From the NCBI RefSeq assembly GCF_028764065.1, contig NZ_JACOFN010000015.1, forward strand, positions 1 through 36,897: a stretch of 36,897 nt of DNA, in the 5' to 3' direction. The stretch comes from Fructobacillus sp. CRL 2054 (GTDB taxonomy: Bacteria; Bacillota; Bacilli; Lactobacillales; Lactobacillaceae). A program made the position numbers and the translations under genes. Below are positions 20,416-22,204 of the stretch, in pieces (the stretch's first letter is position 1; each line of letters begins with the position of its first letter). Under the pieces are notes generated by a model. That model ran no database searches. It was not told the origin of the DNA and worked only from the letters and a program-made list of their open reading frames with translations.

Positions 20416-20680
20416 ACAAAAAAAACGCCCTTTAGTCTTATTGACTAAAGGACGTTTGCACGCGGTACCACCTTGATTGTGCCCAAAAAGAACACCTCTC
20501 ATTATTCGATCAAAACTACTAATCGTCAGCTCTATAATGGGAGCACCCAGCATGGTTTACATCGCATGCACTCTTAGGCGACGTTCATCTTACTTGCACG
20601 TGTTTCACACCAACCAACACTTCACTGACCTACAAGATTAAGATTACTACTTCCTAAACATTTGTTTTTGTTATTAACTT
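20416..20680 (-). promoter_or_regulatory. T-box riboswitch controlling the transporter-argGH operon
   Basis: The minus-strand leader contains the T-box core AAGGTGGTACCGCG (20461-20474) followed by a terminator, AACGTCCTTTAGTC / GACTAAAGGGCGTT (20424-20456), and a T run. Upstream, Stem I is visible: base helix TTAGG/CCTAA (20653-20657 with 20574-20578), an AGTA strand opposite GAA, helix ATCTT/AAGAT, and a GGTTGGTGTGAAAC segment. The codon directly after GAA is CGT (20583-20581), an Arg codon; GTC one base on is the alternative. Uncharged tRNA would stabilise the antiterminator and switch the operon on. Confidence 0.9.
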
Positions 20681-20759: not shown

Positions 20760-21938
20760 TTAGATCATGTCAAGGTGTGTTTGGTTCACCTTGATCCAGT
20801 TCATCTTGCGCATTGCCCAGTAAGTGAAGAATGAGACAACAACAGGGATAGCAACAGCAATTCCCATGTAGGCTGCAAACATTCCCATGCTCTTACCGAA
20901 GAGGGCAAGTGGCACGATGAATGAGTTAAATCCGATTCCGGCCATCGTAAATGGAACCGTCACGTGGAAGACAATCGTTGCAATTGGGGCAGCAATAGCA
21001 GCACCGATCATTGGTGGGATTAAGATCATTGGGTTCTTGATAACGTTAGGGAATTGGATTTTTGGCGTCACGATACCTTGGGCAATCGTTGCACCAATCT
21101 TGTTTTCATGCCATGACATCGCAGGGTATGAAACGAAGACAGCAGTCGTTCCAACAAGGATGGCACCAGCAGCTTCAGCAGAAGTAACACCAGTGGCACC
21201 AATCGCAACAGAAAGTGCAGCAGCAGAAGCAGGCGTCATTGTCATTGCACCGAATGCCATAGCAACGATAGCAGTTCCGATGATTGGGTTAACAGAAACC
21301 ATTGAGGCAATACCATGTCCTACCCATACAAGGAATGGTGTGGTAACGATGGCAAGGTAGTACCCAACAACCGTTCCGATAATTGTCGTTGCAGCAGGGA
21401 CAATAATCATGTCCAGTGGCGTCTTACCAGAAAGCCACTTTCCGAAAAGAACGGCTACAAGTCCAGCTAATACGGCTGAAATTGGCTGACCAGTGGTCAT
21501 GACAGCTGATCCAGCAACTTGTGCTGATGAGAAACCAGTCATCGTCTTTAATACCATTGGTGTCGTTGTGAAGAAGACGGCGTTCGCACCAACCGTTGAG
21601 GCAGCCATGGCTGAGAACATAACCATCGTGTTCGTCTTCATTTGTGAAGCAATCGCTGCACCGAAGGCAGCTGGCAAGATGACCTTCGTCACCGCACCCA
21701 TTTGGACCATTGGTCCCCAGTGAATAAATCCAGCAATCGTTTGGAGCAGCAGTCCCATTCCCAGTGTAACTAGGATGGCGTTTGAAACGCCGGCGGACAC
21801 GTTATAAACGTATTCCTTTGTCGTTGACTTGCTTTCATCCTGCTTTGTCATGGCTTGTTCAGCCTGTTCAAAGTCCTTAATGCTTTCTTCTTTCTTTCCA
21901 GTAGCAGGCATTCCTGCTTTGTTTCCTGACATATCCAT
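20760..21938 (-). CDS. PF13303-type membrane transporter (annotated as PTS EIIC-like)
   Basis: 392 residues from the ATG at 21938, which follows AAAGGAAAAGAATT; the longer frame uses a TTG within the terminator region. A hydrophilic N-terminal part (about 1-45) is followed by about nine or ten membrane helices rich in Gly, Ala and Thr, with stretches such as GAITVTMTPASAA-like AFGAMTMTPASAAAL. The sequence resembles the PF13303 family, labelled phosphotransferase system EIIC but with no EIIA or EIIB partners here and no visible phosphorylation site. The substrate is unknown. It is expressed through an unusual leader with a short reading frame and a strong terminator before the start codon. 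Confidence 0.75.
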   Translation of the reverse strand: MDMSGNKAGMPATGKKEESIKDFEQAEQAMTKQDESKSTTKEYVYNVSAGVSNAILVTLGMGLLLQTIAGFIHWGPMVQMGAVTKVILPAAFGAAIASQMKTNTMVMFSAMAASTVGANAVFFTTTPMVLKTMTGFSSAQVAGSAVMTTGQPISAVLAGLVAVLFGKWLSGKTPLDMIIVPAATTIIGTVVGYYLAIVTTPFLVWVGHGIASMVSVNPIIGTAIVAMAFGAMTMTPASAAALSVAIGATGVTSAEAAGAILVGTTAVFVSYPAMSWHENKIGATIAQGIVTPKIQFPNVIKNPMILIPPMIGAAIAAPIATIVFHVTVPFTMAGIGFNSFIVPLALFGKSMGMFAAYMGIAVAIPVVVSFFTYWAMRKMNWIKVNQTHLDMI

Positions 21939-21957
21939 AATTCTTTTCCTTTCAAAC

Positions 21958-22060
21958 AAAAAAGTCCCGGTAGTTGGTAACTACCGGGACCATAATTTGG
22001 CGAGCAGTTACTAGGTATCCTTTTCCTAGTAACTGACATACAAAAATCAACTTACTAGGT
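21958..22060 (-). promoter_or_regulatory. Candidate attenuator in the leader of the PF13303 transporter
   Basis: Segment A (ACCTAGTAA, 22052-22060) directly follows the leader-ORF stop. Segment B (CAGTTACTAGG, 22025-22035) can pair with A (8 bp) or with segment C (CCTAGTAACTG, 22005-22015; 11 bp). A strong terminator, GTCCCGGTAGTT / AACTACCGGGAC (21964-21990) plus six T, comes just before the ribosome site of the transporter gene. C can also pair over about 7 bp with the terminator's left arm. This is the layout of ribosome-controlled attenuation; the function is inferred. Confidence 0.6.
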
Positions 22061-22138
22061 TTAACATAGCAAGCTCAACAACAAGGCAAATTCAGATGAC
22101 TTAAATGATGAAGTGTTCTTTGATTGAGAGTTAAACAT
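22061..22138 (-). CDS. Leader peptide reading frame (25 residues)
   Basis: Begins MFNSQSK and ends ALLLSLLC, with seven serines, and five Leu codons plus a terminal Cys (TGT) among the last eight codons. AAGGAAG lies eight bases before the ATG, a good ribosome site, and a strong promoter is 40 bases upstream. The TAA stop touches segment A of the attenuator. A second, overlapping frame (22075-22146, 23 residues) starts MASCLTL and ends in two Cys codons (NLPCC), but its ribosome site is closer than ideal. Whether either peptide is made is not known. Confidence 0.55.
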   Translation of the reverse strand: MFNSQSKNTSSFKSSEFALLLSLLC

Positions 22139-22176
22139 GATGCCATCTTCCTTTCCTGATGTTTTATGATAAATTT

Positions 22177-22204
22177 ATTATAACATGAGATGAAACTTAT
22201 GCAA
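22177..22204 (-). promoter_or_regulatory. Promoter of the leader-ORF/transporter unit
   Basis: TTGCAT (22199-22204) and a perfect TATAAT (22177-22182) are 16 bases apart. Transcription should start near 22170, about 230 bases before the transporter start codon. Confidence 0.8.

Follow-up and report, generated by a model that had tools for sequence, protein, structure and literature searches.

The locus examined here raises the question of which signal is read by the RNA in front of a transporter gene whose family name, PTS_EIIC_2 (PF13303), points to sugars. The window, i.e. the whole stretch of DNA analysed, comprises 36,897 nucleotides of Fructobacillus sp. CRL 2054 (contig NZ_JACOFN010000015.1), and the gene is transcribed from its minus strand. 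The initial annotation proposed a ribosome-controlled attenuator at this site, with cysteine or leucine as the candidate signal. Our analysis supports ribosome-dependent attenuation that responds to an amino acid, and with high confidence we describe the leader as a leucine-responsive, ribosome-mediated transcription attenuator sensing charged leucyl-tRNA. The mechanism is of a known kind, the RNA family is absent from Rfam, and the target is unexpected.

Architecture of the leader

The leader lies between a formate-tetrahydrofolate ligase gene, located upstream on the same strand, and the PF13303 gene (Table 1). The promoter was initially called strong. It has a perfect TATAAT (22177-22182) with a TG one base upstream, forming an extended -10 element, but the -35 hexamer (TTGCAT, 22199-22204) is weak (3/6), and the promoter is missing from the list produced by a consensus promoter scan. 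The TATAAT context is retained in the upstream sequences of the Fructobacillus relatives that were compared, and some relatives (L008-L010) show TTGACT at -35.

Table 1. Features of the leader region and of the gene behind it, in window coordinates
Feature	Position	Strand	Basis or remark
Promoter	22177-22204	minus	read from sequence
Ribosome-binding site of the leader frame, AGGAAAGGAAG	22147-22157	minus	sequence
Leader peptide frame, 25 codons and stop, MFNSQSKNTSSFKSSEFALLLSLLC	22061-22138	minus	predicted from sequence
Regulatory Leu codons, TTG TTG TTG AGC TTG CTA	22067-22084	minus	codon comparison
Segment S1 (last Leu codons; partner S2)	22067-22076	minus	covariation in alignment A1
Segment S2 (A of the initial annotation), directly 3' of the stop codon	22048-22060	minus	partners S1 or S3
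Segment S3 (B of the initial annotation)	22025-22036	minus	partners S2 or S4
Segment S4 (C of the initial annotation with its 3' flank)	22003-22015	minus	partners S3 or S5
Segment S5 (5' arm of the terminator)	21976-21991	minus	covariation with S6
Segment S6 (3' arm of the terminator and U tract)	21957-21975	minus	terminator scan and sequence
Intrinsic terminator, 13 pairs (7 G-C), U tract	21958-21991	minus	directly before the PF13303 gene
PF13303 (PTS_EIIC_2) membrane protein gene	20760-21938	minus	Pfam, 234.7 bits (cut-off 28.9)

The 25-codon frame with its good ribosome site is present as first described, and so are the three segments A, B and C, in which B is common to both pairings (8 contiguous pairs for A:B and 11 for B:C). 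A three-way match with at least 8 pairs on each side was found in 0/2000 dinucleotide shuffles, five Leu codons within six codons of one frame in 4/2000, and the leader folds better than its own shuffles (z -4.49). In addition, the terminator's 5' arm is complementary to the 3' part of C, and the last Leu codons are complementary to A. The terminator stands just before the transporter gene, with a U tract as expected, and has 13 pairs instead of the 12 originally counted. The transporter gene probably starts at the ATG at 21936-21938, with the ribosome site GAAAGGAAAAG, and the best segment of its protein shows 99% identity to the counterpart in F. durionis DSM 19113.

No familiar riboswitch had been seen in the leader, and the comparison with 4227 Rfam models agrees: none matched at its gathering score and nothing relevant appeared at E values up to 10, the T-box (RF00230) giving no match at either level. 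A T-box is found elsewhere in the window (20445-20671, minus strand), before the genes of an amino-acid ABC transporter, behind which lie argG and argH; its specifier position, read as GAA-CGU, suggests arginine.

Distribution of the RNA upstream of the transporter gene

The survey covered 397 genomes of the family Lactobacillaceae, in 37 of which a close PF13303 homologue (identity at least 74%) was found. The covariance model R1 matches directly upstream of the gene in all 37. Twenty-eight of these leaders share sequence with the training set of R1 (26 directly, G189, which equals L040, and G105, which has 300 bases in common with the R1 row L050), and nine are independent of the model; two of the nine (G002 and G005) score lower because of N runs. 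Carriers with a name include Fructobacillus species, Convivina intestini and the two Leuconostoc species L. fallax and L. carnosum, beside two unclassified bacteria. The leader, its Leu run and its pairings stay with PF13303 in genera in which the sequence farther upstream looks different. The initial annotation would have been contradicted by relatives that keep the terminator and lose the frame and the segments; the relatives keep both, with compensatory changes.

Further R1 matches are weak (E about 4e-7 to 0.1), and several of these are opposite-strand echoes of true sites. Four others were rejected: L142 and L143 look like chance terminators, L138 and L139 like serine leaders. The latter two (G207:C4:38352-38491 and G365:C11:42035-42173) lie before serC genes and encode Ser-rich peptides ending in LISSSRSCCSHLRRP and LISSSLSTWLSV, respectively. 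Judged by these codons, they are perhaps serine attenuators of other Lactobacillaceae. The next gene is phosphoglycerate-dehydrogenase-like (below cut-off) in L139, while that in L138 has no family match at the strict threshold.

Conserved leucine codons in the leader peptide

The motif Leu-Leu-x-Ser/Asn-Leu (LLxSL or LLxNL) occurs in 28/28 leaders compared, and the residue that follows is Leu in 26 and Gln in two. Pairwise comparison of the 15 distinct cores at four core positions gives 266 codon differences that are synonymous and 14 that are non-synonymous. Outside the Leu run, the N-terminal half of the peptide and its tail vary between leaders, and the ends are LLI, WTS, LLC, GNS, MYS and others. 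Within the last 12 codons Leu outnumbers Ile and Val together in 28/28 leaders (means 5.4 and 0.9). Both this count and that of the Leu run lean towards Leu by the choice of frames on L/I/V density and of the core by its pattern, with none of the 28 dropped. The pairing of S1 does not explain the first two Leu codons, since both lie outside this segment. The 28 leaders exclude L011 and L012 (N runs) and L051 (the same 300 bases as L050), in all of which the Leu run is visible too, as well as the R1-matched leaders of G166, G117, G370, G360, G315, G350 and G328. On this codon evidence leucine, not cysteine, is most likely the sensed amino acid.

Covariation of two mutually exclusive folds

The six segments can be arranged in two sets of helices, a terminating one (S1:S2, S3:S4 and S5:S6) and an antiterminating one (S2:S3 and S4:S5), which were compared in alignment A1 of 27 distinct leaders; structure and alignment were derived from the same sequences, and all values below are to be read with this in mind. 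In the terminating set 90.9% of the cells are paired and 17/34 pairs are changed on both sides. Its covariation is 0.377, with at most 0.133 when the partners are slid against each other, and none of 500 shuffles reaches it. For the antiterminating set the corresponding figures are 84.0% and 8/19, with a covariation of 0.352 (at most 0.131 slid; 0/500 shuffles), while its count of changed pairs is reached by 16/500 shuffles. The measure of further pair types does not exceed the shuffles in either set.

Among the single helices, S5:S6 is paired in 96.3% of the cells (8/12 pairs changed on both sides), S2:S3 in 95.1% (4/9), S3:S4 in 90.4% (7/12), S1:S2, formed by columns 18-27 with 41-50, in 85.2% (2/10), and S4:S5 in 74.0% (4/10). 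The support for S4:S5 is thus lower than that for S2:S3, and its register differs in some Fructobacillus.

Proposed switch and the position of the ribosome

In the proposed mechanism, RNA polymerase would transcribe the leader with a ribosome at work on the 25-codon frame. When leucine is short, the ribosome would stall on the Leu run and cover S1, leaving S2 free to pair with S3; S4 would then remain available for S5, no terminator would form, and the transporter gene would be transcribed. When leucine is plentiful, the ribosome would reach the stop codon and cover S2, so that S3 would pair with S4, the terminator S5:S6 would form, and transcription would stop. With no ribosome on the leader, the S1:S2 pairing may offer a route back to termination. 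We infer that the switch works in cells, in this direction, and that it is decided by folding during transcription; what the sequence itself shows is that the parts of the leader exist and are conserved, that both folds covary, that the Leu codons are kept, and that the RNA also stands before leucine biosynthesis genes, as described below.

Folding of RNA ending at S3 gives S2:S3 pairing above 0.5 in 27/27 leaders when the ribosome occupies the most favourable of the first three Leu codons and in 0/27 when it is at the stop codon, a contrast that is partly built in because the ribosome at the stop codon covers S2 by geometry. The same snapshot without a ribosome gives 26/27, and the state of an untranslated leader is uncertain in the model. 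When S4 is present and a ribosome occupies the first Leu codon, S2:S3 exceeds 0.5 at equilibrium in only 6/27 leaders and is 0.01 in the window. Equilibrium folding by itself does not produce the switch, which would therefore require S2:S3 to form during transcription, before S4 is made, as in classical attenuation. As for the second helix of the relay, S4:S5 in the window is clearly favoured (0.72-0.76) when the ribosome is on any of the first four Leu codons, whereas the value is 0.23 for the last Leu codon and 0.26 for the stop codon. The means over 28 leaders are 0.44 for the Leu stall and 0.31 for the stop codon, the difference being small or absent in many leaders and reversed in L013 and L052.

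Occurrence of the RNA upstream of leucine biosynthesis genes

The leader is not confined to the transporter gene. R1 matches before leuA in the five of five Leuconostoc-group genomes that were read (L134, L135, L136, L140 and L141) and in one genome of another genus (L137); genus g16 was assigned to Leuconostoc on the basis of G189, whose leader is also that of L. carnosum. In Fructobacillus, leuC is present in 2/13 genomes, and both have the leader before leuA-leuB, with peptides ending in ANLLGLLGNP and R1 E values of 2.4e-7 and 9e-8. The attenuator is therefore placed before genes of the metabolism of the sensed amino acid (leuA and leuB).

The gene assignments rest on NCBIfam matches above cut-off for leuB (L134, L137) and for leuC and leuD (L135). 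The LeuA proteins of L134, L136, L137, L140, L141, L147 and L148 have 2-isopropylmalate synthase as the best match, below cut-off because they comprise ~390 residues and the model 514, and LeuA of L135 was identified by its start only. In four loci (L134:7581-8753, L137:921-2087, L147:1254-2423 and L148:1802-2971) the match of LeuA is confined to the initial portion of the model with its 514 residues. The C-terminal domain of LeuA binds leucine and is regulatory, and the ~390-residue proteins may be devoid of it.

Further Leu-rich leaders with R1 matches are found in Leuconostoc. Three of them (L134:877-1028, L136:10540-10691 and L140:17949-18094) precede a frame that looks by eye like a regulator, which in L134 is followed by sufC, near leuA. 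LeuC is an Fe-S enzyme, so the leader near sufC could reflect co-regulation. Another three (L135:9600-9741, L141:3581-3719 and L140:2663-2808) precede a NicT/NicO nickel-cobalt transporter gene, identified by a profile scan in L135 and recognised by its start in L141 and L140. No clear Ile leader was seen before ilvD in the three ilvD loci read.

Paralogous and more distant PF13303 genes

The leaders of tandem copies of the PF13303 gene (61-64% identity) abound in Ile and Val, and so do those of a third copy (42-48%). Within the last 12 codons Ile and Val together outnumber Leu in 17/17 of these paralogue leaders (means 6.5 and 0.7), which were chosen by gene and only the frame in each by L/I/V density; the tandem leader L064, ending in AVIISSPS, is a weak example. 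The genome of the window holds both types (L001 with Leu, L048 with Ile/Val). Three of the Ile/Val leaders were folded singly.

In the tree the tandem Ile copies and the Leu copies form one clade (100/100) with unresolved inner order, and the third copy falls outside it, with a long-branch warning. R1 matches upstream of 7/7 tandem copies. For the third copy the E values are 0.005 (L066), 0.006 (L048) and 0.011 (L068), and on the strand of the gene L046, L069 and L071 give no match. With matches that are weak or absent, common descent of the third-copy leaders with those of the Leu type is no more than a possibility.

Among 30 upstream stretches of more distant PF13303 genes (L073-L082 and L084-L103; 46-54% identity), a leader rich in Leu, Ile or Val was recognised by eye in five (L093, L094, L098, L100 and L103) and judged absent in 25, with L077, L081 and L092 (6 L/I/V in 8 codons) left uncounted for their distance, start codon or place. 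None was seen in G190 either (63% identity, L065). The rule is therefore not general for PF13303. The five leaders and L020 mix Ile, Val and Leu, e.g. in a peptide that begins with MTPSAIVLIIIILVLVIIIV and in one that ends in ALLLGLILDLIIIS. The T-box was rejected as a PF13303 leader: the single match among 39 distinct upstream stretches (L085) lies on the strand opposite to the gene.

Alternative explanations

The Leu-rich peptide itself could act, by nascent-chain arrest or as a small hydrophobic membrane or signal peptide, with the RNA being secondary. The peptide is indeed short and hydrophobic, and the similar Leuconostoc leaders before the frame with sufC and before the nickel-cobalt transporter gene would suit such a role. 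An acting peptide would not explain why only the Leu run is kept, why the residue is changed to Ile/Val on the paralogues and why S1-S6 covary, and we regard this possibility as very unlikely.

The leader might also report a general slow-down of translation, since a ribosome anywhere before S2 acts alike in the folding model (window profile). A general sensor does not account for Leu codons being the ones that are kept, for their replacement by Ile/Val on the paralogues, or for the same leader on leucine biosynthesis genes, which makes it a highly improbable alternative to leucine sensing.

A cysteine-sensing attenuator, in which a ribosome stalled at the terminal Cys or at the overlapping Cys-Cys would steer the fold, was suggested by the window itself: a Cys codon precedes the stop codon, and the overlapping frame ending in Cys-Cys does exist in this leader. 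The expectation that terminal Cys or Leu codons would be kept held for the Leu run and failed for cysteine, which is the last codon in 2/28 leaders and occurs anywhere in 3/28; the Cys-Cys frame is found in 6/28, all close Fructobacillus relatives. Moreover, with Cys in the A site S2:S3 drops to 0.00 in the folding model of the window, as the ribosome then covers A (S2), which would favour termination, the opposite of induction by starvation. The cysteine reading is thus extremely unlikely and close to refuted.

Finally, the idea that the terminator serves the ligase gene, which does lie upstream on the same strand, with the frame and the segments arising by chance, can practically be dismissed, given that the leader follows PF13303 across genera with different-looking upstream sequence, that no shuffle reproduced the three-way pairing and that the same RNA stands before leuA.

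Comparison with known systems

The preferred reading, a leucine-responsive attenuator, has a parallel in layout in the his attenuator of E. coli and Salmonella, a six-segment relay in which A:B, C:D and E:F are opposed to B:C and D:E; that system uses His codons and belongs to Proteobacteria, and no sequence kinship is claimed. The T-box (RF00230) is similar in that the charging of tRNA controls an antiterminator in Firmicutes, but it reads the tRNA directly, without a leader peptide, and has no match on the window leader. T-box leaders on amino-acid transporters are described in PMC2494555.

A Leu-rich ilv-leu attenuator is reported for Staphylococcus aureus, with mention of Lactococcus lactis and Streptococcus as bacteria in which branched-chain biosynthesis is predicted to have leaders of this sort (PMC5794164). 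The S. aureus system shares with the leader studied here the Leu-rich peptide, the choice between terminator and antiterminator, and the Firmicute host, but it controls biosynthesis and not a transporter, and the likeness drawn here is one of layout. Rli60 of Listeria, a ribosome-mediated ilv-leu attenuator, also has a leader peptide with regulatory codons and opposes segments 2:3 to 3:4; it differs in having four segments, a 13-residue leader and a biosynthetic target, whereas the leader in the window passes the choice on, through the extra helix S4:S5, to a terminator that stands apart (PMC5864092 for Rli60). The attenuators with His leader peptides that precede hisS/hisZ genes of bacilli (PMC2965389) belong to Firmicutes too, but concern another amino acid and other genes. 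Among the open-licence matches listed, no title or beginning of an abstract describes attenuation for the PF13303 family or for Leuconostoc leu genes.

Putative function of the transporter

PTS enzyme I (TIGR01417) was found in 0/13 Fructobacillus genomes and in 14/14 control genomes, and the EIIB family PF02302 in 0/13 and 6/14, respectively; the search for the sugar PTS covered enzyme I and this one EIIB family, out of a system that also includes other EIIB, EIIA and HPr. With no enzyme I found, the protein is more probably an importer related to amino acids than a part of a sugar PTS, and gene content makes a sugar PTS role in Fructobacillus unlikely. There is no match for leuC in the genome of the window (about 92% complete) and none for ketol-acid reductoisomerase in any of the 13 Fructobacillus genomes, which makes the strain a likely auxotroph for branched-chain amino acids. 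As BrnQ-type transporters are present in 13/13 Fructobacillus genomes, import need not depend on the PF13303 protein alone.

The structure model of the transporter has a mean pLDDT of 34.8, and the sequence profile of the protein has no match to a solved structure at E up to 1. No description of a PF13303 substrate was found in the open-licence literature searched, and the single paper retrieved that names the family (PMC6952197) does so in passing. Induction by leucine shortage would fit a transporter that imports leucine, its keto acid or peptides. We lean, by a little, towards the broader reading that the PF13303 proteins of this clade are, instead of sugar PTS parts, an undescribed family of importers of branched-chain amino acids, keto acids or peptides, in which the leader codons would name the substrate class (Leu for the gene of the window, Ile/Val for the paralogues) and duplication would have gone along with a switch of codons.

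In general, the name of PF13303 points to sugar, and the Leu and Ile/Val switches give a specific and testable prediction of function in its place. The attenuator family, absent from Rfam, unites a transporter with the leucine biosynthesis genes in lactic acid bacteria.
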